Source: Macrocystis pyrifera
Taxonomy: Eukaryota; Sar; Phaeophyceae; Laminariales; Laminariaceae
DNA length: 64,000 bases
NCBI GenBank assembly: GCA_031763025.1
Contig: JASSKH010000039.1
Location: 2,294,001-2,358,000, forward strand
Reading direction: 5' to 3'
The notes below the pieces were generated by a model. The model was not told the origin of the DNA, ran no database searches, and saw only the letters and a list, made by a program, of their open reading frames with translations. The position numbers and the translations under genes were made by a program. The stretch's first letter is position 1. Each line of letters starts with the position of its first letter. Shown in pieces: positions 6,249 to 45,500 of this stretch.

Positions 6249-6376
6249 CTAGTTTTTTGCAGAACGCGGCGAGTTCCGCGCAACGTTCCGCACCAATCAG
6301 ACCGAGCACGACGGTTACTCCCACGGCTCCCTCCTCCTTGGCGCGAGCGATCTCGAACTCCGATAAAACCAGATCC
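6249..6376 (-). CDS. IGPS-like gene, exon 6
   Basis: 42 codons with partial codons at both ends (DLVLSEFEIARAKEEGA...AAFCKKLG), acceptor ATCAAAG, donor GTGCGT. This is the helix-strand pair after the RKD block of IGPS. The donor shows that more exons must follow to the left. Confidence 0.85.
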
Positions 6377-9300
6377 CTTTGATTCGTGGACAGGTGAAAG
6401 ACAACGGAGAAGAACGTTTTGCATGCGTATAATAAAAAATAGAATCGGGTCGTTACCGATACCAGGCCTGTGGATATCCAAGGATATACGAGACACTGTC
6501 ATGTTACCATGTTGGAATGACCGATCAACAAAATATAGTCTGCTTGGGCGCCAGCAGTCTCGACCTCCGATTTAACCCTACGTATATCCCTTGCATTCCT
6601 ATCATTCATGGACAGGTGATCCAAAGCAGTGTTGCATGCAATACAAAACAAGAAGGGGGCCGTTACGAGGGGTGTAGTGTACGAGGCGATGTTATGGTAT
6701 CACATTGGTATTATTGTCACACAAACTCGTCACCATATTCTAAAGAGTCCACTTTCACAAGGTTACTTGGCGTTATGATATTTTTATCTTGTGGTGACAC
6801 ATTTTATAGCACGCCTTATGGCGACATTATCTCAAGTGAACATCACAATGCCATACCTCACGATGACACTATGTCATACAAATACATGTTCATGACACTT
6901 TAGCATGCTTGATGATGACATTATCACATCTTGTAACGGTCATGGGACTTTGGAGTGGAAACTTGACGATCAAAAAGTGACGATTCCAGCGAAGGCCCAC
7001 TGCGTATAGCGGTAGGGGGGATGGCACAACATGGTGTCCGAGTTACAATGGTTGCAATGCAAGCAGTCGTATGGCACGGGCGCGGCATTTGCGGCATTTG
7101 CCTACCCACACTTCTTGGCGCTGAGGGTGCTCCATAGCTCGTAGGCGGGTTTCAACATCAAAATAAATATATATATTTTTGGCCGCTATCTCGGGATGGC
7201 CTGTCATAAGAGGTAAACATACCTCACCATCATCATCATCATCATCCTCATGATGATGATGATGATCATCATCATCATGATCGCGGCATTGTCACTACAG
7301 CACCATACATACCACACCTTGCCATGACTTCCTCCATCAGACGCGTGTTTGCCTTCTATGGGCAGCACCTTATAGAATCTACTACAGATAGTAACAGTAA
7401 TATCGCGACAATTTTCGGAGGCTCCTCACTAGAAGAGCTCTATAGCATTTACGAGGTCACCCAAAGACTGTTTCGAGAAGAAAAAAAACGCCCTTAAGGG
7501 GCCTTGATCCTACTGTAGATCCGCAGCAAAAAACATTGTAAAAACAAACGATAAGGCATATGCCGTCTTGGAGAAACCTCATCAGTCAGAATATTGCCTC
7601 ATGAGGCCAAAAAGTGCTACCTCTACAGAAGAATGCGTCATGTCAGCATACCGGGCATACAGCATACAGCATACTATTTTTAACCGAAATAAATCATACC
7701 ACATAATCGTAAGAACTGGGGGGGAGAGAAGGGAAAAGACCCCGTGATCAGTGACGGTAAAAATCTCCAGCGACTGATAAAAAAATATGATCGAACAGAC
7801 AAAGCATCCAAACTGCCTTACGCCCTCTACGGCATGTATGCAGGCAGTTTCAGCACATGCTCGTAGGTCAACTAGAGATTCGAATGGGTCTCTCCGTTTC
7901 AATGACCGATCGGCAACAGCCCTTTCAGGACTGCAGTCCCGTTTTGAGGACAAACTAGTCAATTTTTTAGTCTTACGGGGGACCATAGTAAATGGGACCA
8001 AATTTTGTTAGTAAAAATAGGTAAATATATAGGTTTTTGTGTGTACCGTAGGTCCTATTTACTATGGTCCCCAGTAATATTGCTGCACTTTGACACCAAA
8101 ACGGCAGTGCAGTCCTAAAAAAGATTAGAAGGAAATGACATGAAGTCAGCAGTTTGTCCGAACTACGATTAGGTGCAGGTATATGGCCTACAGCAGTAGA
8201 TCTATTGAAGGTGCAGTAGACAAACGTACTCGGCAATATGCCATTAGGGAACAGCAGTAGTACAGCAGTAGAACAGCAGGACGGCCGCACGATGCAGAAC
8301 ACACCTACCAGGTAAGTACTAACTATTTCGGGGGGCCATAGTAAATAGGACCAAATACTGATAATAAAAATAGGCAAATATATAGGTTTTTGTGTTTGCC
8401 ACAGGTCCTATTAACGATGGCCCCCCGTAATAGCTACTCAGCACATACCAGGTAGCACATATCGTGGGGCCGGCCTTATGTATACACTGCAGTATCACAC
8501 TATTCGCCGTGCTAGTATAGCCGCGTGTCGTATGCCCACCACGACACGGGTGTATTTAGCCTCAGCACACAGGTTGATTGGGTATCTTTACTGTATTGCT
8601 GACCCCGGATCAAGTCCCGGGGAATGCGTTGCTCACTGATGTGGTGGTGTTTGGACATGCGTGCGATCCACAAAAAAAAACAAACCCAACTCGCCGCTTC
8701 TACGAGGCGACAGCTGACGATATGCTTCTTTCATACCGTACATACCTGGTATATATTTTCAAGATAAGCACACCCACACCCCCGATTTTGACAGCTGTCA
8801 GCGTTTCTTCCCCTCAAAAAGGATTACATATCCTTCATGAGGCCATCCTAAAGTCGTAGCCGGTACGATATAGCGAGAGCGCGATCGAGGTACCACACAT
8901 AAGCTTCGATGAAACCCTCGATCTCACTATAGCGTACGTGTCAAGGGCATGGTAATATTGTTAAAAAAATTAAAACATCAAACGAGGAAATACAAATCCT
9001 GCATGAGGTCGAAAAAAACCCATATAGTAATGGCGATCGATTTATCATACGAAAGCAGCACGCACATTTTTTTTGCGAGGAAACCTTCGATTTCACCAGG
9101 GGCATATGAGAAAAAAACCTTCCCGACACCCCTTGGACACCCCACTACCCATCCAGTGTCGAGACCCAGACAGGGGAAGGGGGGTGTGTAGTCGATATCA
9201 TGCGTGGCTGTAGTTATATGACCATGAGACCCTCGCATCCCTACATCGCCTGGACGGAGCACGTCGGGTTTTCATCGACCAGGCACACACATTGCTCGCA

Positions 9301-11301
9301 CCAAGCGCGCTGCGCCGTGAGGTGTTCGGCGAGTCGCATGAAGGGTGAGCTGCATCCTACTAAAATCCGCTTGTGAGGCGGACTTGCCCACGAATGACAG
9401 CTTCGACGGGCCAGACAGGGGGGGCGGGGGGTGCACTCTATACCATGCATGGCCGTAGTCGTGTGATCATAACCCCTCGCGTCCCTACAGTCAGACAGCC
9501 GGGGGGGGGGGGGGTGCGGGGGGTGTACTGGATATCATGCATGGCCGTAGTCGTATGACCATAGACCTCAGTCAGACGGCGGAGAGGGTGGGGGGACTAA
9601 ACTAAAACTACGTAGAGTAGTAGTCCCTCTGCAGCAATGCCGGTATGTGACATCGGGCCAATACACCGGCAATATAGCGGGCACCGGCATTATTCCGCAT
9701 ACTGCCATACTGGTTACTGGTTAATCCCATATATGTCAAGCGATTTCACCGGCGTCATTAAGGGCACTGGCATCATTGAACCGGCAATATAGATGGACCC
9801 CTACTGCTGTAAAACGCAGACAAAAAAAACTCGTATTTTGTAATTTCGTCCAGAAATCCCAGATCACTGTTTTTTGTTTTTCGTTTTGACGATAAAACTT
9901 CGTTTTGATTAGTCATTCTGACCATTATGGGAGCGTGGTGTCGTTGTTCTTTTGGTCGAGCACCCCCTATATCACAACTGATGTATTACATTTTATGCAC
10001 TACTTTATGTAGGTTTGTAGGTTTGTTTGCTGAAAATACCTGACGATGACGGGCATCGGTCCGGGGAAGTCTCCGCGGCTGTTCTCCTGATCCGCCACTA
10101 CCCTCCGCAAGTCATCCGCCGAGCAGCCTCCCGTTTGGCTTGTTGTCACGACAGCAGTGCACACAGTAACAGCAGAAGCATGGGAATAAGTGGCACTAGC
10201 TAATGGTTGTTAATAACACTCCAAATGCTTTGTTTGCAAGGGTATACATACTTGTACATACTTATATACTCACTGGTATACACCCGAACATACTTGAGTA
10301 CGACTTTCCTGATCCGCCATTACCCCCCACAAGCCATCCGCAGAGCAGCCTCTCGTTTGGCTTACTGGCCTATTGGCTTACCGGCCTATTGGCTTACTGG
10401 CCTATTGGCTTACTGGCCTATTGGCTTACTGGCCTATTGGCTTATTGCCGTAACATAAGGTAACAACAGCAACACCAGCTATTGATGGTTTTACTACAGT
10501 AACAATTCACAGGCGTGATTGTACGTAATGCCATGATGAAATAGTAGCTGGTAGAGTCAGGACCGACAGTGAATTTTATGATATCGTTGGGTGGAAAAAC
10601 GGTTTGATGCGAAGACAACACACGCATTGGCAGTTCAAGGGTGTGCTTAGTACAAGGCATACCTACGCTATACCTACAGTATGTACGTAATGAGATAGAC
10701 GATGTAGACCAAACAGATCAGAAAAACTATCGCTTGGCATTCTGAGGTGCTGCGCAGGATCTGTACGGTACAGATCCAAGCCAGGGAACATGTCCTATTG
10801 TAGATGATGCAGATCATCACACACCTCCCACCCTCAAACAATATGACCTACAGTAGTAGATCGTACATATCAGGGATCTATCTATCTATCTTCCCTGAAA
10901 GATCTAGATCATCAAGAGATCTGTAGATGATCTGTACACGATCTGTCCGAAAGATCTAAATGATGACGCGGCAATCTACTACAGTATCTGTACTATTAAT
11001 AGTACAAGATATGAGGTGTGACATGCACATACTCTGTCCTCGGTACCGTATAGGATCTGAATGATCTAAAGGTCTAAATGATCTAAATGATCTAAATCAT
11101 GGTCTGTCAGATTGGTCACACTTTTTACTTCTTGTTTTTTAATGTACCTTTCGGTCGCGACAGCTACGCAGCTAGCTCCTCCGTTTCGGAAGAGGGGGCA
11201 AAGCAGCTCAGGAGCCAATATGCCGTCGATAAACCCTGAAAAAAGACATACGACAGACACAGACACAGACACGTATTATACCACGTATACAGCAGTACGT
11301 C

Positions 11302-11341
<40 letters not shown>

Positions 11342-14300
11342 ACACGTATACCGCAGTAGATCAGCATGATTTACTCGTAAGCAGACACAGACACAGTATA
11401 AATACTACACGTCGGCAGTATATGTAAGTAAGTATGGGAAGAAGAGACATGGCCGTTCAGGAGGCAAGATGACATCGATGAATCGGGCAAGGCCGCAACA
11501 CTAAGGAAAGGATACCAGGTACACCAGTAGGTCGTCAGTAGACACATACTAGTATACAACAATAGGCCAGCATTTTAGACGCAGGTACAGGTCGGCAGTA
11601 GATAGATGGGGGCACAGCAGTTCAGGAGCCTAGGTGTCGTTAACGACCAAAACTAGCAGTAGCAAGACAGCAGGTATGCAGCTGTATGAGACGCAGGTAC
11701 AGTATGAGGTAGAGAGCAGCTCAGGAGCCAAGCTCCGACCGACGAACCAAGCCATGCCATCCAGTTAACGACAGCTACAATAGCAGTAGATCGGCGGCAG
11801 ACACATGTCAGCAGTAGGCCAGCGTGATATACAGGCACAGTAAGTAGGCCAGCAGTAGATATCTACCAGTGTACAGGAGTGCGAGGAAGCAAGTAGCACA
11901 ACACGCAACAATATACGAAACATAATCCATTTTTCCGAAAAGGACTGAACGTTGTCGGAAGGTATACTGAAATACAACGATTACGTAACCCTAACCGAAT
12001 GAAGACTTACTTCGGCGGTCAACAGCTTTCACTCACCAGACTTCAGAATTTTTCTGTACTCTGCAACGACGGACAGGGTTCCCTTGTTCTTTCGGAGCAC
12101 AGACGACAGGGGGTATTCCGGGCCGTCCCCGGCAACACTTCCCGCCTCCGCCTTGAGGAAAATAATGAAAAAAAAACGGCAGGAAATCGCAGCGGGCAAA
12201 TGTGATGCGTGTGAAAGACGTAACCGTCTCACCACTCTGCGCGGGAAGGTAAGGATGGTTTAGGATGAGGTAATGCTGGTTTGTTCTTGATATTCATGTT
12301 TTAAACGGCTCTTCTAGTTTCGCCCATGGTGGATATTTCTGCAGGAAGACTGGGGAGGGGGGATATTCTGGACCATCCCCGCTAACTCTTTCTGTCTTCG
12401 CCTTGGGGAACAAAAAAAAAAAGAAGAAATCGCCGGAAATCGCAGCGGTGTGAAAGTGAAACGTGAAACGGCTGACAGTTACATTTCTTCCATGTGAATG
12501 GCAGGGGAAATTACGGATCGTCCCCGGTAACGCCTCCCGACCCCGCCATAGGGAAAAACGAAATGGCCGGAAGGAAGCCGCAGTGGGGAAATGCGACGGT
12601 GCGAAATGTGAAGCGGCCGACGAATCAGCAATCAGCGATTATACCTGTTCCAGGGTCTTGAACACGGGACTGTCGGGATTGGAGGATCGCAGCTCTTCCA
12701 TGTCCTTCGCAACAGCCGCCTCTTTCGCCTGACGTAGAAAGGAATGCATTCATACGTATTAAACAGACGTATAAGCAATGGGAAGACCACATAAAAATGC
12801 CACCAGAGACGGAACAAGGGACAGGGTTTTGCGGTTACATTTCGGTGCGGCACAACTACTTCATACCTGGTTTATGTATAAACTGCTGTATTACAGTACT
12901 ATGATACAGTATGGGTCCAGGTATAAGAACCTACTGAAATTATATTAAGAAATTATGCCTCGCTTTTGGGGGGACGCTGATAAAATGGGATTAAGAAATC
13001 GTGCTCAGCCACGAGCGCCACACAGAACTCTACACAAATATTAACCGAAAAAAAAAACAAGCTGCGAGACCGAAAATTCCCTAAAAATCCATTTTTGCGA
13101 GCTTGGTCTGACGCTTGTCCATGAAGGCGTGGTACGGGGTGTGTAGGGTTTAGAGTGGTTTACACATTTTGACAGTTTCCCTACAGAACGGAAAACTCTA
13201 TACGCACATACAGATAGTAGCCTATTTGTACATCCCCTGAGATCCACAGCTGTCAGACGAAGGCCACGCTGGCACCCAAGCGTCCCCTGGTCCCCGGGTT
13301 TCCGGTAACTCTAATATCTATAAGTTTTATCGGAACTGAAAAACACATCGTTAGTTTAACACGCTGCGTTTACAACTTCGGCTGGTTCGTGCATACCAGA
13401 GAGCGACCCTGACTCGAAAGAGGTTCATCACAGCAGCTTGTGTTTCTCTCGAGATTGACCTCCCGCCGGTTCTCAACAGAGGTCTACACCTCGACGTAGA
13501 GGTGCTGCAGTGGTCGAAATTGGTCGAAATTTGGGGTGCACAAAATGAGACAAAAAACAACCCCCAACCGATCGTTTGCACCTCACTTGCGGACAGCTAC
13601 AGCTTCTCACAGAAAACTACAGCCCACGAAATTGAGGGATGCTCCTGATGGCATGTGTGAGGGTGTCGGGTGCGCCAGACGGCAGTCGTAGGCACCCAGA
13701 AACGACTCACGAGGTGTTTTCGTGTACTCGGAGTTGCGAGCGAGTAGCACAAAAAGCTCGCAAAAACGCTAAAATGTTTCATTTCAGGCAAGGGAGCACA
13801 GATAGCACAATGCCTACATCACCGATGAAGCAATGGCCTTCGCTACAGTATTGTTGTTCTCCAGGCGGAATATAGTCTCTTAAGGAGTCGTCGTCGAAGG
13901 TGTTGCGGAAGGAAAAACTTCGTTCCCATGATAGGTAGATAGTTGTTGGGACCCAAAAAGTGAAAAAAAAAAGGGTTAAAAAGCTCAGGATTCTTGTAAT
14001 TTTGCATCAACCATTCTACATCTACGAAATACGGATCTTGGTTGCAAATCCTTTACTCTAATTCCAAGTCGTACGTATACGTCGCCGAAACGCCTACGCG
14101 AGGGTACTTGACGACGCATTCCTGAGGGTGTTAGCGTCTCCTTAAGATGTTGTTTCCCTAAGACATGGGTATATATATATATATACTCTTCATGAAGAAC
14201 TTAGACCCGTACCAGGTACATTGTACACGCGATCGAAGTATCACAAGGGTATTGTGGTATTATTCACTACTGAATCTCATGTTGCCGCTTGGGACCCGTA

Positions 14301-15511: not shown

Positions 15512-16500
15512 GGCAGCGTTGCCGTGTGTTATCGCGTCCCGAGGAGCGGTGTGGGTGGAAAGGCACAGGGGACGCTGCTCTCCCTCGCGTTAAGTGCTGC
15601 GTGCTGATGCGTTACGTATGCTGCTGGCTGATCATGATCATTGAAGAGTTCATACTGCGTCGGAGGCCGGACCTGAATGCGGGGTTCTCTGAATATTTCT
15701 ACCAATCAGAGGCCGAGGTGATTAAATCCGCCGCATATCCTCACGAGATTTTCACCCCCCTCCCTCCACCAGTATACAGCAGTACCTGTACATAACCGGT
15801 CACCACTCCAGATACCATGGCAACCAGGCATCAACCCTGTCCACTCGCTCCGAGTATCGATAAATCTAGCCAATGAAACCGATGTCGGGGTTCGTAACTA
15901 CTGCTTGTACGGCTGTCTGTGACTGCTATTTACCAGCCAGTACCTGCCGTAAGAATGAACTGCTCTGCTGTACGGCTTCGTAGCTGTGACAACATCGATA
16001 CAGCACGCCAACTCACGGGGGTGAGCTGTGTGTTATGCGCTGTGTGTAAGTCTCACAGGAGTGACCTGGGTGCCGGAGCGCGTCTGTAGCTGCCTCTCGG
16101 GAGCTTGCTACACTACCTGGTAGTCCAGATTATCACCGCTGCAAGCAGACATACGAAGTGTGTAGCACAAGATCAAAGAAAAAACGCGGCGGAATTACGC
16201 AACACGGGATTAGTCAAGGGAAGTTATTACGCGCACCACTTTTTCGACACTGCTGTTTATCGTATGTATTGAGGGTTGGGAATCACTGTACCTGGCATCC
16301 GATACAATTATATCTATAATCCCATAGCCAGAAAAAACGGCATAACACCAGCTTCGCCCTGTCTTCGAGCTACCGGAAAGTCGTGACCGCTATTTTCGCA
16401 ATTTGCGGAGCTGCCGGAGGATGGTGGCCCATATTTATTTGCAACACCGCTGCGTAGATAAACCTTTGCGCATCGGATACCCACGGATGCACATTGTTTG
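15512..16500. other. 5' flank of the IGPS-like gene, no gene seen
   Basis: Unique-looking sequence upstream of the exon 1 ATG. No TATA box or other promoter element could be assigned with confidence, and no convincing ORF. Confidence 0.4.
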
Positions 16501-16509
16501 ACTTTTTAG

Positions 16510-17320
16510 TGGCATGCCACGCAGATGTCACCCCAAGGGCCATGGGTTACCATCGGCCATGGCGCTGCCGCGGCACGTACCACGCTTGTGCCCGCGATAC
16601 TTGCCTTGGCATCCCACGACGAGCCCCGCGGCCATGTCCACGGCAAGACCCATGACAAGATCCACGGCAACTCTCAAGGCAAGACCCACGGCAATGTCCA
16701 CGGTAAGACACCCACCTGGCACCCTCTTGCCATTTGGTATTTTGACCCCGCGTGGACTCATCCCATTTGTCACCCTGCCCCCCCCCCACAGGGTGGAGAA
16801 ATATAATGAGCCCTCCGCAGGAGCCGCCGGGAGTCCACCTGGCGCCCTGCTCCCTTTGGGCCTTACCGTGGGGCTTGCCGCGGGTCTTGCTGCGGGCCTT
16901 GCCGTGGTCATGGCCGCGGGGCTTGCCGTCGGTATTGCTGTGGGTATTGCCGTGATATGCAGTGAACACTGCCGTGCCGTGCCGTAACGTGCCGTGCCGT
17001 GCCGTGCCGTGCCGTGGGAGTTGCTTTTGACCGTGGGGCTTGCCGTGACGTGCCGTGAGAGTTGGCTTGGCGCTCATTGTAAGGTGTGCCACGGTAATCG
17101 TTCCGCGTATGCCATGGCGAATATCTTGGGTTGCCACGACAAGCCACGGCATGTCGAGGCATACCGTGGGCACTACGTTAGGTTGCGGCATGCCGTATGC
17201 CATGGGCACTGCCGCGGCACTGCCACCAAAAAGTTAAAGATGCCGTGGCAAGTACTACGACAACATCCGCGGGCACAACCGTCGCACGAGCCGCGGCAGC
17301 GCCATGGCTGACGGGAACGC
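16510..17320. repeat. Inverted low-complexity array of CCACGG/CCGTGG and CCGCGG motifs
   Basis: Left half is rich in CCACGGCAAGACC-type units, right half in GGTCTTGCCGTGG-type units, so the two halves are reverse complements around about 16790. Units are 9-18 bp and decayed. Open frames across it on both strands follow from the lack of stops in the unit. Confidence 0.7.
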
Positions 17321-17443
17321 ATGGACCTTGCCGTGTCTGTAGTTTTTTTTACAATAGTATAGGCAGGACATGTTGATTTGACTGTTGAGTTCCGAAGTAT
17401 CTTGTCTTGGGTGCTCCTAACTCCGGGGGCACTGCACACTGCA

Positions 17444-17929
<486 letters not shown>

Positions 17930-17959
17930 CACTGCTGTGTCAGATGCCCCCCCCTGCAC

Positions 17960-18940: not shown

Positions 18941-19123
18941 GTTTTGTTACGTCAAATACGATATTCGCCTCCAATCTTCGGCCTGCCCCGACCTCGGGGT
19001 GGGCCGGAGCCCATCGGAACCTACGACGGTCTGCCGGTGGTCATACGAGCCCCAGCCTCGCTCGGTAGAGAGGAAACCCGTGCGGTCTGGTAGGTGAACT
19101 ACTGGCGGCGCGGGGTGGTGGCG

Positions 19124-20400
19124 ATGAGTTTTATTTTCAACCCCAATGCCGAGGAGTTCGTTCCAACAGCAGAGGAGGAGCATCGCCACAGCGGAGAGCG
19201 TAATGGGTACAGCATGGGGAGAGGAGAGGCTGGGCATTGCGTGGAAAAGCAAACACACCGACAGCGAAGACGAGAGTGTCGGGGTGGGGATGGGCTGGGA
19301 CGGCTGAACCCAGTCCTTGGAAACGAAGGCACGCACCGGGCTAGAAAACAAGGAGCCTGCATCGTAATACAAAGAAAAATAAGGAGAAAAAGACAAAAAA
19401 GACGGAGGGGTCGGACCTCGCGTCGGCTAGCAAAGTTTGCAGCGCGCGAGGCCCGAGCGAGACAGAAGGCGGCACTCGTGACGGTAGCGACCTACAATGC
19501 GCGTACCCTGGCTGTGAAAGGGAGGAACGGGTACGGGCATGCCGAGTGTGTGCGGGCGAAGACCCGACAACTGGGCCGTGACTTCGTTGGCCTGCAAGAA
19601 ACAAGGAGACCCGGGAAGACCGAATTTTCTGCAGCAGGATACCGGGTTTTCAGCTCAGGGCAAGAAGACACAGATGGCAGGCAAGGACTATACGGAGTTG
19701 GTTTGGCAGTGAAGGAAACGATATGCCGTAAGTCTGTATATACCTACAAGATAATTGACGAACGCCTTATGTCTATGCGCTTCGAGCTGACCGGTGAAAG
19801 CGTTGCGGTCAACCTATTACGGGAGTCCATAGTTAATGGGACCAAATTTTGTTAGTAAAAATAGGTAAATATACAGGTTTTTATGTATACCATAGATCCT
19901 ATTAACTATGGACCCCCGTAATAGTTGTTGCCTATGCCCCAACGGAAGCCAACCTCAACATACAGATGAAAGAGGAGTTTGGGATAAAAAATTGGGGCAC
20001 ATGGTTGAGCAGATTCCAACGAAGGAATGCCTGTTCGTGCTGGTAGACGCGAACGCACCGACTCGAGAGAGGATGGAAGGGTGCGGTGACGGTAGGGTGC
20101 TTGGAGCGTACGGACGTGATGAGCTCAACAATAACGGCAAACGCCTGCTGGCATTCGCTTCAGGCTATAAGCTCGCTCTCACGAACACGTTTTTTTAGCG
20201 CTCGCAAGGGTGGAATATCTCATACGTTCAACGGCATCAGCAGCCGCAACGACCAAAAACGGATTGACTACATCCTAACCCGCCAAGCACACCGACCTCG
20301 CGTGCATGATGTTAAGGTCCACCCCCAGCCTCCGCCCCCAGCCAAGGCGGATTCAGACCATAATATCGTATATGCGATGGTCCGCCTCAGCGGTCGTTTC
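19124..20400 (+). pseudogene. LINE-A N-terminal PAM2-like motif and endonuclease domain
   Basis: The ATG at 19124 opens MSFIFNPNAEEFVPT, matching the PAM2 consensus (L/F)NPNAxEFxP that binds the MLLE domain of poly(A)-binding protein. A Lys/Arg-rich linker follows, then the endonuclease: TVATYNARTL, FVGLQETR, the metal-site block GLYGVGLAV, VVAYAPTEAN, LFVLVDANA and the C-terminal RIDYILTR and SDHNIV. A 105-bp MITE splits NLVVAYAP at 19817-19921. One-base shifts lie near 19983 (A run) and in the T run at 20190-20196. Confidence 0.85.
19817..19921. mobile_element. MITE family 1, copy 3, inside LINE-A
   Basis: Flanks are CTA and TAG. Taking out the element plus one TA leaves CTAG and gives back the LINE frame AVNLVVAYAPTE, so the target was CTAG and TA was duplicated. 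Confidence 0.95.
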
Positions 20401-20490
20401 GCACCCAACTGACACGTACGAGCGAAAAACAAAATTCGGCCTTTCGACCGGCAGAAGTTTCGATCCGACGGAGATTGCAGGCGGCGAGTC

Positions 20491-22900: not shown

Positions 22901-22934
22901 GGTGGCTAGGTATCGGTGCGACTAGCTCTTATAG

Positions 22935-23690: not shown

Positions 23691-23699
23691 GGACTTGAG

Positions 23700-23950: not shown

Positions 23951-24039
23951 GTCAAAAAGATAAAACGACACACCACACACCCCCAGACAGAGGTCGGAAT
24001 GGAAAACCGTTGCAACCGTTGTGATCACATGATGAAATA

Positions 24040-30500: not shown

Positions 30501-33500
30501 CATGGAGTACCACTGGGTGTGGCGTGTGGATTGTTCAATAGGAGGGAGTAACATACCTGTGAGTCGAGCTTCTCTTTCTTTGCTCGGTCGGCCGTGTTGT
30601 ATCGAGCGCCTACGATGTACTCCCATTCCTCCACGCTCCGCAAGCCCTAACAGTAACAAAAAAAAACCCAAAACAAAACAGACATCGAGCTGAGACCATT
30701 ATTTATACCTGCACAGGTTTTTGTTGGTGAGTGATTGACCATGCTGCACATTGTCGAACGGCAAACGCAACAATAATAATATACACCGTGGTATTCCGTA
30801 TAATAAACCAGTCCATCTTTATAGTAATATCAATAGTAATAATGTAACATTAGTAGTGTATCTCCCGAAGAGTCTTGAAACGGACGGTCTTATAGTGGGT
30901 GCCACGGTCTTAAAGTGGGTACCCCATTGTTGTGCACTGCTATCGGGTTAGGGTTACAATTGTATAGCATTAAATAGTAGTGGTATACTCGTGGTACATT
31001 GGGTCACTATTGGGTCCTCGCTTTTCAGCGGCTCAAGAGGCACTCGGCCGAGTGACTACCCATTTTTTTTCCCAGTGTTAACTTTCAAGCTTTTCTTGTT
31101 TTCGCGATATGCACCGCGATGGGATTTCTCGTTGCTATGCGCCAACAACATATGTTCAGGTCATTTTTTGATTCAGAGGTGGAGAACCACTCATCCGTGT
31201 GGCGTAAACATGCTGTTCAGAGTGAAAATGTTTGCTTAACCCTCCCCCCCCCTACCGAAGCCAGACGTACCGTATGTCGCGGCAAAGGTACGTAGCACCT
31301 AGTTTTTCGGAGCTTTATGTAGAAGAAAATATAGTTATTCACGCTTAAGCCCTTTGGGACTGCAGTCCCGTTTTGAGGACAATCCACTCAAATTTTAAGT
31401 GTTTTGTCCCTAAAACAGGACCGCTGAACTATTAATAAAAGGCTAGAAGGGTTATGGTGTTACCTATATCCCTATGGTAGTCTTAGTGTTGTTACACTAC
31501 AGTGAATCATGGGATCAAGTAACACATGGGTACAGAAGTCACTCAGCTGAGGAGGACGTCCCGTCCAACAGCCAGAAATGTTTTGGCCAAAATTAATGCT
31601 ACCTAGCCTTGACGTAGCACGCGTGAACATTCTTACTGCCAAGCTATACAGGTTAAACCGTAAATGTAGTTCCAAACCAATTTTTAACACTGTCAGGAGA
31701 TGGTGGCGCTCGCTTTCCAACGTCATCAATCGCGGCACCTTTTGGCAGGGGTAGTGCCTTGTAACGGCGGTGTCTAAGTACTTTCTCACCCAAGCATGAC
31801 TTAAAAGACGAGAATTTTGTTCGCGCAACCCGATCGATACTGATAGCATGATAGCACTATGCGCTATCGATAGCCCAAAAAACATAGCGTAGTAGAAGTA
31901 CCATATGACATCATACGTAGTTCCTAACTCGAGGAGCTCGACCAGTGGGACAGTGTAGCCTCAAAAGGCAAAAAGTGCAATCCCTACCGTGGGATGAGTC
32001 TGCTGAAACTGCTGATATCACAACATACCCCTCTGGGACCTCTTTTAAGGGATATACCAGGTATGGGATAGCGACCAGAACAGCGACAACCTGTCTGTGG
32101 TGCTAGCAATCAACTACCAAACTGTCTAGTGATAGCGTGGGCGTTCCGAGGGGAGGGCGGGTAGGATCATGTCATTCGCCCGCGGCGTACGACTCCTCGC
32201 TGTGTAACTCGGGCACCAATTTTTATCATCCCCGTTCACGCGGTGGCCGTTGTTGCAACTACTATAAAATATTATCACCACCTTATTACCGCCAATCTTT
32301 CCCTCTCAAGTCCCAAGAAGGTTGAGAAAAAAAACGAATTGGAAACGTAAACGTTAAAATACAAAGGCGAACTTCCGGAAGATTATTTCATTCGGTTGCC
32401 GCACCTTGTGCCCTTGCGCGTCGATCAGGTCCAGCCCCAAAAAGTCAAACACCTCCTTCAGTGTCTTAAGGGGGTCTTTCGCCATGTCTTCTGTGAACAC
32501 CACCTGGAAAAAAAATGTTCCGTTGCCATAAAAAGGTACACCGATGATATATGAGCGTTTTTGTGAACCCATTTAGCAACTATACCCACAGTTTTGAGGA
32601 AAAACTACTTGAAATTAGAGATAAAATTTAACGTGGAAAAACTTCTCGGAATTAGTTACACAAGTTATAGCGGAAAAACTACTTGGAATTAGAGACACAA
32701 ATTATAGTGTAAAGACTAGGCTAGGAATTAGTGACACAAGTTGTCGTGGAAAAAACACTTCGCACTATATAGTGACACAACCTAGATCGTGGAAAAACTA
32801 GTCGGAATTAGTGTGACAAATGCTACGATCGATGTAGGACTTTTTGGCGTTTTTTTTGTGACTGACGGGGCTTGCTCTCATCTCAGAAATTGACTAATAT
32901 CGTCGAATCTATAGTACTGTGCCAGGTGTGGGTTTTTAGTATTGTTGGCTGTATAACCTAATCCCTGGCCGTTCGACGCAATTTGATCAAAAGTCAGTTC
33001 TTGGGTGCGGTATACTCGTAAATCTTCTATACTATAATCAAATGAGGAACCTCAGACAACATGAGCAGCGGCTATCACCTTACCCCAACAGCACCGCCAC
33101 CAACATCAACACCATCAACACCAATATCAACAAACAAAACCGAACACGCACCTTGCTATAAGCCTAACCCTTGCTAGTACGGGGGACAGTAAATAGGACC
33201 AAGTATTGTTAGTAAAAATATTGAAATATATGGATTTTTTGTGTACACCATAGGTCCTATTAACTATGGTCCCCCGTAATAGTTCAAGTACGAACCTCTA
33301 ATGCCGCAGCACCAGCACACCCACTACCACCAACATCAACCACCACAACCAACGCCAAAACCTACCTTGAAAGGTCTCCTCGCCGAACATATTTGAAAAA
33401 ACAAAATCAGAAAAACTGTGAAATGGAAACGCATCCCTCAAAACTATTAATAGTCTTTGCCAGCACTTCTTGCCGAGAATATTGGACCACCACCACCACC

Positions 33501-36500
33501 ACCACCACCACGACACCGACACCAACAAACCTTAGCAAACATCAACGCCGACACCTGTGTTGTCCCTCTCCCTGTCGAGTACATTGGACCCGCAGCAGCC
33601 ACATCAACAAACAGCACCAGTCAACAAGATCAACTAGCGCCTACCTTATTTGTTTGTTCCAATTTAGAACCGCGCCGCACAAAAACGACTAGTCAAGATT
33701 AATACTACTAAAATACCCCCCCCCCCGAAACGGGCCTCAAGGCTCCACTATCTTCCAAACACTACATCACCACCAGCACCAGCACCATTATCTTCCTAAC
33801 ACTACATCACCACCAGCACCAGCACCATTATCTTCCTAACACTACATCACCACCAGCACCAGCACCATTATCTTCCTAACACTACATCACCACCAGCACC
33901 AGCACCATTATCTTCCTAACACTACATGACCACCAGCACCAGCACCAGCACCATTATCTTCCTAACACTACATCACCACCAGCACCAGCACCATTATCTT
34001 CCTAACACTACATGACCACCAGCACCAGCACCATTATCTTCCTAACACTACATCACCAGCACCAGCACCATTATCTTCCTAACACTACATGACCACCAGC
34101 ACCAGCACCATTATCTTCCTAACACTACATCACCACCAGCACCAGCACCATTATCTTCCTAACACTACATGACCACCAGCACCAGCACCATTATCTTCCT
34201 AACACTACATCACCACCAGCACCAGCAGACACGACTTTGCCTATCAAGGGTAGCTCGTAGTGTTTCTGCGGGTCATCACTTGACTATATATAGCGTTAAA
34301 GCCCTTTATCTCACACGACGCTGACAAAAACCAAATCAAGATGAGAACAATCACATGCATGGCCTGCAGGTAGACAAGGCCTGCCTTGTTGTCAAACATC
34401 TGTCTAATAATGTCACTCCAACGACTCTGGTCACCATCGTAGTTCAACTTGCTCAGCCCGGTCGAGGGAAACTAGAGTTTTTTTTCTCTATCGTATCACG
34501 GGACACGGCCAGCAACAAACACCATACACCGGCAGAAAAAACGCCAGCAACACCAACATCCCACCTTGAAGCTCGTTCTGCCGGAGACGTTGAATCAGCG
34601 CTCGTTCCAGGAGCAGGAGCAGCAGCAACAACACCACTACCCTCCCCCCCCACCACCGCCACCACGATTATTACGACAACCAACACCAGCATCATCTTCA
34701 AAAAAACACAACCGACAACGACGAGCACCAACAGCACCAACATCGACAGCACCAACAAGCACCGACACCCACCTTGAAGTTCTCCTTGCCGAATACTTTG
34801 AACCACCGCTGCAGCTGCATCACGTAGACGCTCTTTCCCACGTGCGCGTTGAACATCACCGCCTCCAGGTAGTCGCGAGGGTTACACCTTGTGTGAATCA
34901 ACAGCCGAACAACCGACTAAAGCACGCCTTGACTTAACTAAACGTATAGTATATAGGTGGGGACCACCCGCAGTTGCGTTACTGCGTTTAGAATTTAGGC
35001 CACTAGGGCGAGGGGCTCATGACCTCACTCAAACATAGACTTGATATTCATTGGCGCAGCGTAACGAAGTGAGTATCAAGTACTATACATTACACTATAT
35101 CGTAGGTTTCGTTCACGAACACCATGTTATAAAAATGGAACATACAACAAGCACGCCGGACGAGCGAGTCTGGCGCACTTTATGACGCAGCTTGGAAATT
35201 TGAGTTTCAACCATTTCAATCGGTCGCACTCATAGCTGACGTAGTTGTGCAATTTTATAAAAACAATCCCCATGGCGATGTAAAATCGCGAAACCGAAAG
35301 AAGCATAAAAGCTCAAGCTTGGGACTAGCAATAATCAGGGCAGTCACTCGGGTGAGGGCTTGGAGAGGTTGAAAATGTCGGACCTTGACACTTTTAGCAC
35401 TGAAGTCCTGTTTTGGGGACAAATTACTTACAATTTGACTGGTTTATCCCCAAAACGGGATTGCAGTCCTAAAAGGGTCGAGGTTAACGTGACCCCCAAC
35501 CGCAGGATTGTTGCTAGTGTTAGTACCACCACACTACACTACACTATTAATAGTCACTCTCTAATTCACCTCATCATTAACAACCTCTTTACCCTCTGGG
35601 GACTCACTTCAGAGGGGGAAACTTGACGATACAAAAGGACGGTTGAAGCAGCAACGGCCACTGCGTCATGACTGTTGACTGGTGGGGGATCATACAAACT
35701 GGCGTCTTACTGCTGTGGTTTAGTATGAATAGAGGCACACCACAAGGGAGTCGCACTACACGGGCGAAGGAAACACGATCCTACCCTATATAGCTGTACG
35801 TACTGCTTGCTGGGCGCTGGCACTGCTGGCACAGCACACGGTACCTGGTACTTGATACAACACCAACCTCATCGTTAAATCGGTCGCTATCTCGGGGTCC
35901 CCAAAGGAGCTATGAGAGCTATAGGAGCTAGAACCAGGATATTGGATACCAGGTACCAGGTATTATTTTATTGTGTTTGCCCTCGGATAAGGTAAGTGCC
36001 GCATGATCTTCAGCTCCAGACCTCCGACAGACCATGACCTATCTATCTGGTCTATCTACTGTGCATCATCTAGATCGTCTACGTACAGCAGTCAATTGCT
36101 CATCATCCGTCTGTCATGAGAGGTCGTGCAGGATGTGCGTATGCGTAGTGCGTATGCTTAGTGCAAATCCAGCGCAGGAAGCATGTGATACAGACAGAAT
36201 TGTGTTACAGAGAGGATTGTACCGTCCCAGGCAACGGGGGATAGATCATACAAGATCGGGAATGGGTGGATCTATCTGCCTAGAAATATGTGCATCGCGA
36301 AGTGGCAATGATCTGTCAATGATCTGTGAATTGATGATCTGGAAACGATCTGTTTGAAGGGTGAACCCCTCCCAAAGGAAACAAGAATAAACCAGGTTCC
36401 GACGGTACAGCAGTAGGTAGGTTCAGTAGTCCCCTCCTTTCAAAGGACAACGCGGTAAGGGAAAACGGCGCGACTTCATATTTGTGGGCACTGGTGATGT

Positions 36501-39500
36501 TGCTCACGATAATATGGGGCCGGTATCAAGTCTCATAAGGGACTCTTTGGTGCCGTACGCAAGGGACCCCCAATCCCGAATACTGACACTCTTAACTATT
36601 GGTAGGGTCTCTCAAGAGGGGCTATTACGGGGGACCACAGTAAGTAGGACCTATGGTATACACAAAAACCTATGCATTTACCTATTTTTTACCATCAATA
36701 TTTGGTCCTATTTACTGTGGTCCCGTGTAATAGCTATTTACAGTGTTGTCAAATCAAGAGCCCCGTCAGCCAGAAATTCTTTGTGGAAAAATTGGACGCG
36801 TGCCACAACAGCGATGGCTTTTTTTGGCCCAAACTATTTTGCGTATTTTTGACTGACCGGACTCCTTAATCCAATATCGTTGAACCCCATTATTAACACT
36901 ACAGTATTAGTAGCGTTTTACGCTATTAATACTATTCGTGATACACCTCTCAACCCTGTTAGGACTGCGGTACCGTTTCGAGGACAAAGTACTCGAAATT
37001 TGAGTGCTTTGTCCTCAAAAAAGGGACTGCCGTACTAATCAAAGGCTTAAAAGGCTACGTTTTTTGTTAATCGGGTTGTACTTCTCATATTACGGGCGAC
37101 CATAGTTAACAGGACCAAATATTGTTAGAAAAAATAGGGAAATATATAGGGTTTTGTGTGTACCGTAGGTCCTATTAACTGTGGACCGCCGTAATAGCAT
37201 TAAACGAAAAAAAAATAACAGTTTTTGGGTGAGGGTACGAGTAAAGCTCCTCAAGTGGGGTTGGTGCCTCATAAACTTGTACCAGTACAGTAGTTGTACC
37301 AGTAGGTGTACCCCACCCACACCGTGGCATGCGTTGGTGCTGCTGCGTACGCCTTGCTCTGTCCAATGAATAGCACGCATCGTTATAAAAAACAGCAACA
37401 TTACGACCAGTACGTACCGGTTGGGGGAGCGACCTTTCAGTTCAAATAGAAAATAAAATGTTTTCAAAAGTTTATATCCGTCTCGAATCGTGCTATGCAA
37501 AAGGTGTTAGGTTTCCCTTCGGAGGCATTAGGACATGGGGGAGCGACCTTTCAGTTCAAATAGAAAATAACATGTTTTCAAAACTTTTGGTCCGTCTCGA
37601 ATCGCGCTCTTCACAAGGTGTTAGGTTTCCCTTCGGAGGCATTCGGACATGGGGGAGCGACCTTTCAGTTCAAATAGAAAATAACAACATGTTTTCAAAA
37701 CTTTTGGTCCGTCTCGAATCGTGCTCTTCACAAGGTGTTAGGTTTCCCTTCGGAGGCATTCGGACATGGGGCGGGGGTGACGCAAGAAAACACTTCCGAT
37801 GACGTTTCGCGCAGCTGAAAAAATGAATGGCCCCACCAGCCGTTGAAATTTTGAAGTCTACGCAACAGCCCGAAAAGCGAAACGCCTACATAGCGACCAG
37901 CTGAACGAAATCGGTCGATAACACCAATAAACAGGATGACAAAACACGAAACGCCTACACAACGACCAGCCAAAGGGAACCGGTACATACCTCTGCATAC
38001 ATATACATATATATATATAGATAATTACATACATACCATGGCTCGGTGTGTGTGTTGCAGATCTGGCACGGCGGGTTTCCCTCGCACTGATTCTTCCCCT
38101 TGGTGTCCCTAACAAAGCACAAAAGACAAGAGAGACATCACAGACACCAGACCGGGCGCCACGAGATAATATGCACAAGGCAAGATGCGACGGGATCAAG
38201 GGCATGCACAGACAAGGCAAGACAAGACGCGTTAGTGCAACGTCATCGGCAAATGCAACATGGTCGGGCGTCACGAGAAACGCACGAATATCAGACGAAG
38301 TACAGCTATAGGACGGGCAAGGATAACGAGTGAAGTAGATAGAGGTTGCGCCGGATGTGGGTATTGTGCAGAAGGGGAGTTATAATATGCCTTGTCCAGT
38401 TGCAGAGGGTAGCTGTTCTTTACATTTCTTGGTTTCGCTTCCGTTGGTTTCGCTCTTCTTTGAGAAGGGCGGTGTTTATTTGTGATCACTGTTGTGAGAC
38501 TCATTTCCGCACATTGTCGGATAGCAAAATACAACAAGAATTACGCGCGAAAGCGAGCGTCTAATTTTGACGACGCCAAAAATATAGGGTGCCCAAAAAA
38601 ATGCCTGAAGCCCCCGACGTGACGTTTGGTATTAATAGCACATGGTGAAGCGTTTTCTGAAAAACAACATGGGGAGTTGTGTCCCCCGGTTTGAAAGGTC
38701 AAAAACAAAAAACAATCACGAGCAAGTACAGGATAGCTATCGATCAAACGACGAGCATCTGAACAGCGCCGTCGCCGCTGAGCGCCCAGAGCTGCGAACG
38801 GGAACCACCGGAAATACGTTTCTGGGCTCCGTCTTGTTGGTGTGTTTTTCGCTGCACGATTGCTGCGCCATGGCGAGACAGCTACATCTCAGCAGCCTCG
38901 ACCCAAACACTCCATCGGGAGCACAGCTCCAGCTGCAGCTACAACAGCATCCCGCTCTTCTGGTTACGTTTTTTCCCACTCGACTTCGACCCCAGACTTC
39001 AGGCCAGTACTCTACGCAAGTATGAATAGTATTGATAGCAGTAATGCTGTTGTTGCTGTGTGGCACTACATACTGTTGCACCAGTACGTTTTACTACTCG
39101 CAGAGGACACCGCAGCAACATTTCTGAGCCTGATCCCTGATGCCGACGTCTTCTCTCTTGCGTGCGGTACCACAGTAATACCGGTAGAAGCGGCGTATTG
39201 GAGCCTGACCCGCTGTGTTCTGTCTTACAACAACCACAATTGTTTTTTCCACGAAACATATTTTGTAGCGTCGGCGAGACAACGACGACGACGACTACTA
39301 CTACCGTCTACCGTCTACCATCCAGCAACGCACACAAGTTGACGACAGTTACTTGTTGCAAATATCCTGATGGGCGAGCTCCTAGCGACAGCTATACCAT
39401 ACTACACAGCTATACCATACTACACTATCCTAATAAAATCGTAATATGGCGAGATGTTACGGGCTAGAACACAAGATGTCACAGGACACAAGGCAAGACG

Positions 39501-42500
39501 CCACGGGATCAAAGACAACACTCCAAGGTAAACAAGACAAGGTTAGGGTTGGGGAATATTGCCAAGTCGCCAAGGAAAAATAACAGTACGTTATGTACGG
39601 GGTTGTCTAGACAAGACGCTACGTACGCGATTAAAGTCGCAGGACGTTACGGGATAAAATACTAGACGTCAGGGGATAAACGAGAAGACGTCCTGGGACA
39701 AAGCAGACGACCAGACGGCACGTGACTATGAAAAACACGTCACGGGATAAGATACACAGTTACTGGATATGTCTAACGCAATAGATCACTGAATAAAGGG
39801 CAAGACAAGACGGCACGGGACACAAGACAAGCCGTCACGGGCACAAGGCAAGACGTCACGGGATTGTATATTGAAGACAAGTGCTGTGGTAAGGGTAGTG
39901 ATCAATTTTTGTGATGCTCCTGCCACTTGATTGTATAGGAACTCTATCCTACTATAGTTACATCTTACCCCAAAAACTGATTGTTGAGAAAAGCTACTAC
40001 CGTATTAAAACTTCTACCCGATGAAACCTGTATTTCAAAGCCTACTATTACGGGGGGCCATAGTAAATAGGACCATATATTGTTAACAAAAATATGGAAA
40101 TATATGGGTGTTTGTGTGCACCGTAGGTCCTATTAACTACGGTACGCCGTAGTATTAATCTTATTAATACTGCTGACATTACCAATAGTAATAGTAGGTA
40201 CATCACGAATAATATAGTAAAAATCTAGCGATAGTAATGGTATTCGAAAGGTGTTGGGTGAAGGAGCCTACTATTAGCCAGTTAGCAACGTACTGGCCGA
40301 GATATGCTACCTCCATCGTGGCACGCCTCCACACGTAACGCCCCCATACGTGCGCGATTGAGCCAAGACGGCCACATGCCACAGTTTGTGACCGGAAACA
40401 CAGGGCAGTTAGGCGGGAATCCTTGCATGAGACACCTGACATATCATGATCGACCGTAGATACCGTACATCGTCTAGATCCTAACAAGCTGCCGTTGTCA
40501 TCTCTTAAGCAAGGATCTGCCTATTATATAGTAAATTTTATATCCCACTCAGGAGAAATGTGCTACCTAGATCATGCCAATTAGACACGTAGCACATCCA
40601 ACGAAAAAAAAAAAAAAACGTTTCCAACGGCGCAACATATAAAAGTGAGGAACCTGCCACCCGCCACCGGCCCGTGCACCTGCATGAACTGACCTTCGTC
40701 TCCCTCCCGAACAACCACTCTCATAACACATCCCACAGCACAAATAAAACGAACACACACATAACACATCCAACGGGGAACACATATCTTCAACTGTGAA
40801 AAAACAAAACAGAGGACCCGCCGCATGCCACCGCCCGCCCCGTGCGCCTGCATGACGTGACCTCCGTCTTCCTTCCAAACAGCCCGTTGTCAACACCCCC
40901 CGCCCAATATCACAAAAAACTGAATCAGAGACACACGGAACACATCTAAACAATAAATCGAGCGGCAAAACCGCCTCCGCCGCACGTGTCACCGAGTCCA
41001 ACCCAAAACAAAGAACAACCAAAGGTACAAGCGCAAAAAAACACCCTGCCCGCCGAGCACACGCACCTGCATGAAGTGAACTCCACCTCCCTGCCGAACA
41101 GCCCGCTGTCGGTAGCGTCCTTGAAACATTTTGACAGCTTCTCCACTCTCTCGGCCCCCTCCTCCAGCACCTCCAGCAGAGTGCGGTCCTCGACCAGCTT
41201 TAGCCTCCTCCGCCCTCGAACTGCCCTCGCCTCCCCTACTATCTCCGCCCCCGCGGCAGCAGGGGGGGCGGTGTAACTTGTGGTTCCGGTTCAGGTGAAG
41301 CCGTGGGGTCGATGGCGGTTTCGTTTGACGCCACTGTTATGTAGCAGGTGTATGTTTGCATATTTTATATATGAAGTATGTTGTTTTCGATTTTGTTTGC
41401 ACCACCGACGACGAAAGGAACCAGAGGGCGGGACCGAGACAGGGACGGATGGAAGGACGGAGGGAGGGAGGGAGGGAGGGAGGGCGTGAGTATGTGGTTG
41501 AGAGTGGGCATCAAATATAACGGCACAACCGTGTCGAACCGCGGGAACCTTCCCCTCCCTCTGCTCCCCTCTCCTCCGCCCTGAATGAGGTACTGCAGCA
41601 GACCGGTTTATTGTGCCCTTAGCATTCAGATTTAGTGCAGACACACCGGTCACTCAAGTGGTCTAATATCATTTGGGCTCTCTTCCCCCCCCCTCCCCCA
41701 CTTCTTAGAAAAAAACACCCTCGCTCATATCCTCTGACAAGCTTTTGCCCCCCCCCCCCCCCGTTGAGATATTGACAGTCTGTGTCTCACTTTCGCTCTT
41801 GTACCCACACGAGCATGTGCCCCCCCCCCCGTCCCCCTTCCGACTAGGGCGATGCAAGACATGAACACATCATCTCTCCTCTTTGCCACCTCCCTCTTAC
41901 CCTGCCCCGCCCCCCCCTTTCGACTACGGCCATGCATGACATGAATACATCATCTTTCCTCCTCGCCACCCCCCTTTTACCTTCCCACTCCCCCCCTCAC
42001 CCATGCCGCCCCTCCCTCTCAATAGGGGTGCGAGGTCAATGGTCAAGTGGCTTAAGGCAAACAACCAATGAGTCCGATCCCCCCCCCCCCCCCCCCCATC
42101 CCCCGCTCGCCCCCCGCTCCCTCTCCTATACGTTCTAAAAAGGCCCTTCACGGACTCACATTCGCTCTTGTACTCCCACGAGCTGATGGTCCTCGCCACG
42201 GGTTCTCTGAGAACGATCAAAAACCTGAGGCCTTTTTGCTTCAAGGTCCCTTCTCCGTACAAGTCGGAGATGCGATGCGGCGCCTCGGCCACGACGGAAT
42301 AGTGAGGCGTAACTGATAACGGTTGGGGTACAATGTCATAGACGGCGAGTCGAGGGAGCAACCACGACAGCATTAGTCTTGACGGTTACAGTATTATATT
42401 GTAGCATTAGTAGTAATGGTATGAAAAGAAGCGGTGGTCGATTGGTAGTAAAAATAGTACAGCAGAAGTAGAGCAAAAGTTATCTTGGTGTTATATTGTA

Positions 42501-45500
42501 AACGTTGTGAATAGTGCTTGCGCGAGAATCACCGCCCCGCCGCCCCCCCCCGTCTTTCAGTCAACAGGATCACCCCCTCGCCCCAACCTATCACGGTCAA
42601 TATCGGGTGTGCCCTTTCTCCCGCTCCCCTCCCCTACTCCCCCCAGTCAAGAAAGGTGCTCACCTCACCCCTCTCCCCCCGCCAAATTATCACATGTGCC
42701 CCCTCACCCGGCCTCTTCCACGAAACCCTCTATTCATAATGGTGCCCCCTTTTGCCTCCCCTCCTTTCTTTTCCCCCTCCGCCGTAACCCTCGCCCCCCC
42801 CGCCCCCCCGGCGAAACAGGAAGGGGATAACCTTAGCAAAACGTTTCAACGTATTATATGTAAATAGTGCATTGGGCATTGAACTGTTGGAAGTGTCTGC
42901 TAGGAGTACGAACAATGCTCCGTCTCAAAAGGAATGCGTGGCCGTTGGTCAAACAACTAAGGAAAGCAACAAATGGGTACCCCTCTCTGTCCCGGCATTG
43001 TAGGGATGCGAGGGCCTATGGTCATACGACTACGGCCATGTGTGATATCGAGTACCTATCTCCTATCGAGTACACCCCCCTCTTGCCCCCCCCCCCCCCC
43101 CCCTCAAGCCCTAACAACCTTTTCTCCCCCCTCCGCCACCTCCCCCCCCCCCCCCCCCCCCCCCCCCTCCACTCCCCTCCTCTCCCTCTCGAGATCCTCA
43201 CAGTCAACGACGGTGTCCTCCGGACGAGCAAGCGTAGCTAACCGTGCCCTTCTCGCCGCTATTTTGGTGTCATGCCAAAGCTTAGGAGAATTATCGAACA
43301 AGTGAGCTTCGAAGAAGTTGTAGCCTTCTTGAGCTGACACCAGGCGAGCGCGTGGGTGCCTGCTCAGCCAGTTGGACAGAGAAGTAGTGCCTGAAATAAA
43401 GAACAAACACAAACCAAACATGGAACAAAATGAATCGGGAAACAAAGGAGAGCCATGCATAGAAAAGGGGCGGGGGAGGGGGGTTGAGCTTGTGTCATGC
43501 CAGAATCCTACGATAAGTAGCGAATACGTGAGCTTCAAAACACTTATCGTTTTGACCTGAGAGCTGGCGAGCACACCGGTGCAAAACCAGCTCGGCAGAA
43601 AAGTAGTGCCTCAGATAAACTATAAATCAATTATGGATCAGAAGAGAACCGTAAATCGTGGGAGGGGAGGAGGGTGCATATTGATTTCTCGCGACAAATC
43701 TCGGGGGAAACATCGAACGGGTGGGCTCCGATAGAGTAGTAGTAGCCTTGTTGAGGTGACAGCAGGAGAGGACGCGGGTGTCTGCTAACCCTAAGTTCCA
43801 CAGAATACTACTGTAGCAGCGGATGTAACGTATGTTTAAAGGACGAATGAAAACAGAGCAACCAAAGAACAGCTGCAAACCGTATGCAGGGGGTGGGGTG
43901 GGGTGGGGGATAGGGGGTGGGGACATATTCATCCACGGAGAAGCAGTGCCTGCTTCTGTGAAAACAAAAACGAAAAAAAGTGACCAACACATACGTGGGA
44001 AGGGGTTGGAGAGTGGATGGTGGGATGGGAGTGGAGATGGGGGAGTGGGGGTCAGGAGTGGAGGTTGAGGGGTGGGGGTGGGTTTGGAGGTTGAAGGGTA
44101 GGCGTGGGGGATGGGCTGGAAGGGTGGGATTGGGTATAGCTCAAGCCACTTGGACAGAGAAGAGTCGCAATGCCTGAACATTTTTCGTGAAATAAACGAA
44201 GGAACTATGTACAGCGGTAGAATTTCTTTGGGTTACCAACCGATGATACATTTACACCAACGGGGGGGGTGTAGGGGGTGCGGGTAAACGGCAGCGTCAG
44301 GATGGGAGGGCGGGGGTAAACATAACAACCAACATCGATGAAAAATATGACAAAGTCGATCATGAAGCGCACGGTGGGAGGTCGGAGAAAGTATCGTCTC
44401 TCGAGCGAGACAAAGTCGATCATGAAGCGCACGGTGGGAGGTCGGAGAAAGTATCGTCTCTCGATCGACTCGCTCTGCGGCTGTTCCCAAGATAAATGCC
44501 GCACTAACACAAATAGAAAACGAAATAGGATTCTAATTGAAAACAAGCTCACTACATAGGGAAACCCTGTTGCCAACAAGCCCTTCTACGCAGTCCAAAC
44601 AAACAACGAAAACAAAATATCAACTAGGTACGGAACACAGGAAAAAAAAACGCTCACCGCATTTGGAAACCCCTATGAAGAACGCTGTGGGTAAGCACCG
44701 GTTCTCGCCCTCCTCGTCCTCCAGACATCGCGGCCTCCCGTCCGGAAGCAACTCTCCGGCTAGCTCCTCGGGGACAAAAACGTTTGATCCCCTGCCGTCA
44801 TTCCCACAACTTTCACCGTCGGTCCGGGTGCGTCGTCACCGGGTCGCCAGCGGAACGACGGGTCGAGACGGGCGGGCCGAACGGGAGAGAGCTCTAGGAG
44901 CGGCGCGAGAGCGAGGATTCCGAGCGTTAAAGTACAGAAAATAGCTCCTGCATGTCGCGGTCTTCTTCTCGCGAACGGCCTGGCACTGAGGGGGGACGGG
45001 ACGGGATTTGGGAGGGGGTTGGGATGGGATAAGTGATGATATATTGGGACGGGATTTGGGGTCGTGGGACGGGGTCGTTATATGATACAAGATGGCATAG
45101 AGCTAAATAGGATATTATTTAGCATTGTATTTGAAATGGGACTTGGGATTGTGGTACGGGGCTGTTAGATGAAGTACAACGTGAACTGGGGCTACATGGC
45201 ATGGGATTCAGCACTGGATTTGAAACGGTATTTGGGATGGGGCTCGGGGTGTTGAGGCAGGGTTGTTTGATCAGGTTAGGTGCAGTGGAGCTAGTGGGAT
45301 GTCGTTCAATGGTAAATAGAGTTGGTCAAACGGGTTTGGGATGGGATGGGATGTGGTGGGGTTTGGGGTATAGGGCGTGGTTGTTTGACTAGGTTCGGTG
45401 GAATGGAGAGATTGTGTTGAACGGTAAATGGAGCTCTTGAAACGGCTTTGGGACGGGATGGGCTGGGATGGAACGGGAGTTCGGGTGTGGGACGAAGTTG

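Follow-up and report, generated by a model that had tools for sequence, protein, structure and literature searches.

Partial, decayed copies of exon edges in the introns of two genes of the kelp Macrocystis pyrifera

The introns of two genes in a 64,000-nucleotide stretch of the Macrocystis pyrifera genome (assembly GCA_031763025.1, contig JASSKH010000039.1, positions 2,294,001 to 2,358,000; hereafter the window) carry diverged partial copies of the splice junctions of their own exons. The genes are an IGPS gene and a sulfotransferase gene, both on the minus strand, and the observation of junction copies in them is confirmed. All the copies are on the same strand as their source and lie within the intron faced by the exon edge that they match, a facing rule stated by an original prediction made from the window's sequence and borne out here. 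The copies very probably arise from local direct duplications that cross a junction: the resulting half-copies are tolerated, decay in the intron, and stay visible beside an exon that selection has frozen.

Comparison of window exon peptides with brown algal proteins identified both genes. The IGPS peptide matches a partial protein of Laminaria digitata (84% identity across 56% of the query) and a protein of Ectocarpus siliculosus (72% across 81%), and the sulfotransferase peptide matches a protein of Ascophyllum nodosum (42% across 96%). Exons were set by homology, by mapping the matched proteins back to the window and then choosing splice sites. They are named I1 to I6 in the IGPS gene and SB to SG in the sulfotransferase gene, SG being taken as exon F of the original prediction. 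Exons I1 to I6 join into one open frame, as do SB to SG. Homology and the joined frame place the source exons I3 (12037..12151), I4 (11148..11235), I5 (10040..10138), I6 (6249..6376), SB (44658..44816), SC (43202..43390), SD (42160..42312), SE (41067..41238) and SG (34773..34887). The 5' start of SB is uncertain, there being no defined acceptor at that place. All these exons and all the copies below are on the minus strand; copies are read on that strand and given in window plus-strand coordinates. The IGPS gene continues on this contig at positions below the window.

Every junction was aligned with the intron to which it belongs, and the score was set against 200 dinucleotide shuffles of that intron, the reverse complement, and 18 junctions of other introns. 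At 8 of the 20 junctions the own-intron score was reached by 0/200 shuffles and 0/18 other junctions, a result in favor of the copies; shuffled-junction controls had been named in the original prediction. One of the eight, the SC donor, was discounted and its match dropped as a G-run. The seven that remain are the acceptors of I3, I4, I5, I6 and SC and the donors of SD and SE; copies are also present at the SG donor, though it lies outside the set of eight. None of the inverted scores in the 20 tests rose above its own null maximum, and the window junction comparisons found no copies at either edge of SF, in the intron between I1 and I2, or at the SG acceptor, so that some junctions are free of them. 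The 19 listed copies were also tested one by one, with 1000 dinucleotide-block shuffles per stretch: 18 gave 0/1000, SB gave 5/1000, and 17 combined 0/1000 with freedom from simple repeats. The junction test is the fairer and less biased of the two, because the stretches used in the copy test were picked after the alignments had been seen. Of the 19 copies originally assigned to named exons, 17 thus hold; the SB copy is weak, and one at SG is a simple repeat.

The acceptor-side copies are the clearest. At I3, copy 2 (12464..12637) spans the acceptor from -90 to +90 with 120 of 186 aligned columns identical, and copy 1 (12337..12465), also acceptor-spanning by alignment, abuts it; each gave 0/1000 shuffles, and together they make up 301 of the 493 nt of their intron. 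The acceptor-spanning I6 copy (6540..6725; alignment, 0/1000 shuffles) adjoins the real unit, since only 7 nt separate the copy, 6725-6540, from the real unit, 6532-6334; the two align across the acceptor and some 156 intronic nt. SC has an acceptor-spanning copy 1 (43492..43664; alignment, 0/1000 shuffles) followed after a gap of 13 nt by copy 2 (43678..43871; 125/194 identical, 0/1000 shuffles), together with a weaker copy 3 (44139..44279, or 44178-44139 when delimited more narrowly; score 44 against a null maximum of 34) and a weak copy 4 that is near the null (43912..43992, or more narrowly 43975-43935; 40 against 38). The units are therefore adjacent, of tandem type, at I6, at I3 (copy 2 with copy 1) and at SC (copy 2 with copy 1). 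At I4, three copies at 11432..11482 (37/51 identical), 11604..11640 (30/37) and 11671..11748 (52/79) represent the exon part, and their alignment is almost confined to exon sequence. The I5 copy (10307..10363; 51/57 identical, 0/1000 shuffles) has just 3 intronic nt and borders a minisatellite, features that make it look unlike a plain tandem unit. The minisatellite, with a 16-bp repeat, runs from 10357 to 10444 and has a short word in common with the junction.

Donor-side copies are best developed at SE and SG. SE has two donor-spanning copies, copy 1 (40831..40891) and copy 2 (40586..40716), each recognized by alignment with 0/1000 shuffles. They score 100 against each other; in the same kind of alignment with the real junction copy 1 scored 66, and another run gave 69 and 76. 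Since the copies resemble each other more than they resemble the real junction, the alignments suggest that one may be derived from the other. At one site, judged by eye, both copies have V, as does the Ectocarpus protein P0010, and the present exon has F. SG has a donor-spanning copy 1 (34502..34602; 74/105 identical) and two distal donor copies, one at 33318..33397 (60/80 identical) and one, partly TG-rich, at 33485..33606 (84/124 identical), all with 0/1000 shuffles. A proposed fourth SG copy (33087..33155) was rejected: its sequence is a simple repeat with further matches at unrelated sites. The SD donor-side copy (41786..41831) is near the null, scoring 51 against a null maximum of 47, and the weak SB copy is at 44482..44567, or 44567-44540 when delimited more narrowly. 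At the 5' end of SB, around 44790-44860, a single frame of the contig protein P0013 runs from a membrane anchor into exon B, and the window shifts frame there.

Exon, splice site and intron are all held by the copies at I3, I6, SC (copy 1), SE and SG (copy 1). The proposal that copies generally have this composition thus stands well for these exons and less so for I4, where the aligned part is nearly all exon, and for I5, with its 3 nt of intron. The far exon edge is reached by no alignment made for the window copies or for IGPS exon 7 (the kinesin copies described below are outside this check), which speaks against the suggestion that the copies are a stock of would-be alternative exons. That copies decay while the used exon stays open was also predicted correctly: broken frames lie beside exons that join into open ones. 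Over 13 copies, identity with the real exon is 70.6% in the exon part (514/728), a figure inflated upward by the choice of this part by alignment. The intron part is 52.7% identical over its first 25 nt and 50.0% over the next 75 nt, and unrelated DNA gives 44.3%. A model in which the exon is frozen and the intron free to change predicts about 0.71 and about 0.53; the two identities agree with decay along a single branch for the exon side and along two for the intron side. The splice dinucleotide is retained in 10 of the 13 copies.

Membership of dispersed repeats had been named as an outcome that would count against the copies. In a search of the assembly (537,376,219 bases, 223 contigs), in which the absence of a match is no proof of rarity, the only matches to the I3 copies were the copies themselves and exon 3, and the I6 copy matched itself alone. 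In a 304-kb comparison only the simple repeat at SG 33155 matched unrelated places. The comparison with related genomes proposed earlier showed copy number to differ between related contigs, which appear from their differing introns to belong to other species. Among nine related read-through frames, exon-edge copies were found in P0020 and P0021 (0/500 shuffles) and in P0025 (10/500), and the same 500-shuffle comparison found none in the other six. The copy upstream of exon 3 in P0020 matches I3 copy 2 together with the sequence that follows it (33/59 residues, E 8e-21). That sequence leads directly to the real exon 3 in P0020 and to copy 1 in the window. Copy 2 is thus common to both by descent, and copy number differs through gain in the window or loss in P0020. 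A copy lying upstream of exon 4 is common to P0021 and P0025 (score 194), and its P0021 version is fresher than any window copy.

Junction copies are general in the genome, as a real but modest effect, and the window is an unusually rich spot. IGPS exon 7, which lies beyond the window, is flanked by copies on both sides, scoring 76 at the acceptor and 100 at the donor, and either score was reached by 0/200 shuffles. Two independent families, picked regardless of the finding in the window genes, were represented by 50 of 54 CCT matches and 30 of 131 kinesin matches. With 700-nt flanks and a threshold of 28, copies in the facing intron were found at 8 of 100 CCT edges (expected 0.03) and 2 of 60 kinesin edges (expected 0.04), or 10 of 160 edges pooled (expected 0.07); inverted and non-facing copies numbered 0 throughout, and the expected counts for facing copies were taken from other genes. 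Lowering the threshold to 26 gave one inverted kinesin edge, and 1400-nt flanks gave 9 facing, 1 inverted and 0 non-facing copies at the 100 CCT edges (expected 0.37). For the two window genes with IGPS exons 7 to 9, facing copies were found at 10 of 27 edges, inverted at 0 and non-facing at 2 (expected 0.02). The two non-facing matches are the lower edges of I4 and I5, where the exon is short enough for the 70-nt query to extend to the opposite edge. No weight is given to a step of 208-250 nt to the nearest copy, which was seen at 7 of 9 window exons but fails at exon 7 (127 and 909) and at the CCT copies.

Local direct duplication is not confined to junctions. Same-strand local matches were found for 12.0% of 80-nt segments in the window introns, 7.8% and 9.8% in the CCT flanks, and 8.4% in random DNA (ten 2-kb stretches), and inverted matches for 2.8 to 4.9%. 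In two more stretches of the window the same-strand figure was 8.9% (inverted 5.5%) and 14.3% (inverted 2.4%), and the CCT and kinesin edges (10/160) are no richer than the random-DNA background. Junction targeting is not supported, because random DNA and CCT flanks have same-strand matches at much the same frequency; the best reading is that local direct duplications arise alike in introns and in random DNA. The earlier claim of intron growth by repeated tandem duplication across junctions is consequently retained in part: duplication is local, direct and, at some junctions, repeated, and the special role given to junctions is not supported. Young tandem duplications internal to introns are present at 37422-37771 (114 bp, three units) and 44349-44468 (60 bp, two units, 98%).

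The course of events that we propose is as follows. A short direct duplication covering a splice junction would place two versions of the junction close together. Splicing would keep the version that joins the complete exon, the used version being recognized here from the open frame alone. The other version would end inside the exon, without a second splice site, and would be left in the intron to decay. Selection would freeze the real exon, so that the exon half of a copy would outlast a wholly intronic duplication as a recognizable match. Arrays would form by repeats of the duplication step or by unequal exchange between copies. The duplications themselves probably originate in break repair or slippage, and exon definition may be the reason that half-copies are tolerated, since a junction-crossing copy would lack the exon's other splice site. 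Such tolerance fits the long introns of kelps, with a mean of 1816 bp given for Saccharina japonica (PMC11836290), and the missing whole-exon copies: among 24 listed events 0 were whole-exon copies against 3.9 expected (P 0.009). This list was typed by hand, takes CCT exon lengths from Pfam match lengths, and leaves aside the IGPS exon 7 donor copy, the L050 copy, the distal SG copies, one SC spacing and the kinesin copies. An extension of the proposal, put forward tentatively as a possibility, is a steady ratchet of intron growth in kelps, driven by junction-crossing duplication, in which single-edge copies are invisible at birth, because a short exon is recognized by both its edges, whole-exon copies are purged, and the half-copies that survive accumulate as arrays and preserve earlier versions of the exon, of which the V in the SE copies may be a case.

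Several observations weigh against local direct duplication as the full account. In the window introns, junction segments were matched at 19/60 and internal segments at 247/1679, a difference of about twofold. The edge rate of the window genes, 10/27, is far higher than that of the CCT and kinesin genes, and neither it nor the twofold junction excess is explained by a uniform process alone; the twofold excess is put down to the frozen exon and the choice of window. The comparison applied to IGPS exon 7 found no copies at IGPS exons 8 and 9. The upward bias in exon-part identity belongs here too, as does the I5 copy, in which the intronic portion expected of a plain tandem unit is missing. Finally, the copies at SD, the IGPS exon 7 donor and L050 lie 369, 909 and 1399 nt from their sources.

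The I5 copy and these distant copies are the points in favor of templated insertion, in which a nearby exon edge is copied into an intron break during repair with no head-to-tail duplication; because of them, some copies may be templated insertions. Proximal duplications in primates, with a median of 147 bp and some with splice sites, give this explanation a precedent (Pace et al. 2009, PMC2671141). As the source of the copies in general it is rather unlikely: inverted inserts should then be possible, whereas inverted copies were found at 0/27 and 0/160 edges at the threshold of 28, and the units at I6, I3 and SC are adjacent. Retention of the copies as functional decoy splice sites or alternative exons is very improbable. 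The splice dinucleotide is kept somewhat more often (10/13) than the half expected from 29% divergence, and one copy is common to the window and P0020; however, alignment over the junction itself favors retained dinucleotides, the exon parts have diverged as described, frames are broken, and the far exon edge is never reached. Even less credence is given to the view that the copies remain from the birth of introns through tandem duplication of exonic sequence, or from duplication of whole exons. Both are documented routes (PMC3443670 and PMC2592719), but the units at I3, I6, SC, SE and SG span an existing intron together with the exon, and the deficit of whole-exon copies stands against the second. 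Chance, low complexity or dispersed-repeat membership accounts for the simple sequence at SG 33155 and the SC donor and might for the weak SB match, but is scarcely tenable for the rest, as shuffles, other junctions, the inverted strand and non-facing introns gave no comparable matches and the I3 and I6 copies matched nothing beyond their own locus.

The window holds other repeats and mobile-element-like sequences. Between IGPS exons 6 and 7, at 417-5426, a minus-strand frame of 1669 aa resembles, by eye, a Ty3/gypsy-type polyprotein. Sequence like a LINE-type endonuclease and reverse transcriptase, split over several frames, was noted by eye at 19094-22669, and an ACT microsatellite of 163 units is at 17445-17933. 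A dispersed element of 126 nt is present at 7954-8079, 8307-8432, 19798-19923, 37071-37196 and 40029-40154; its copies are 77-80% alike, have inverted-looking ends, and look by eye like a miniature inverted-repeat transposable element (MITE). Pfam and PDB searches with long window stretches, stops being given as X, found no match, and no relative of IGPS was found in viral contigs.

In tandem exon duplication and mutually exclusive exons, an exon is copied into the neighboring intron whole, with both splice sites. The kelp copies differ from these duplications (touched on in PMC2592719) in holding one edge only. The primate repair-mediated proximal duplications are, like the kelp copies, local; their median is 147 bp, and they take in splice sites of introns as well as four partial exon/intron donors. 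The account excludes copies less than 50 bp from their source and mentions a case of opposite orientation (Pace et al. 2009, PMC2671141). The kelp copies differ in being same-strand, adjacent in three cases, and several per junction. Head-to-tail short duplications made by break repair are of the same type and a common natural mutation according to Schimmel et al. (2021, PMC8355091), who mention insertions below 100 bp; the kelp steps are mostly larger, old, decayed and at splice junctions. When introns are gained by tandem genomic duplication, splice signals are involved too, but, as outlined in the review PMC3443670, which cites Hellsten 2011, that process turns exon into a new intron, whereas in the kelp an existing intron is lengthened. 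No description of serial junction copies was found among titles and the openings of abstracts, a survey that leaves most subscription papers uncovered and is no proof of absence.

Intron lengthening is mostly explained by transposons, and half-copies are a route of growth missed by ordinary repeat masking. The pattern can be tested in any annotated genome by comparing each exon edge with both introns, in facing, non-facing and inverted arrangement. Half-copies also date local duplication, since selection holds the source edge still, and they provide natural, near-identical competing splice sites as a test bed for splice-site choice.

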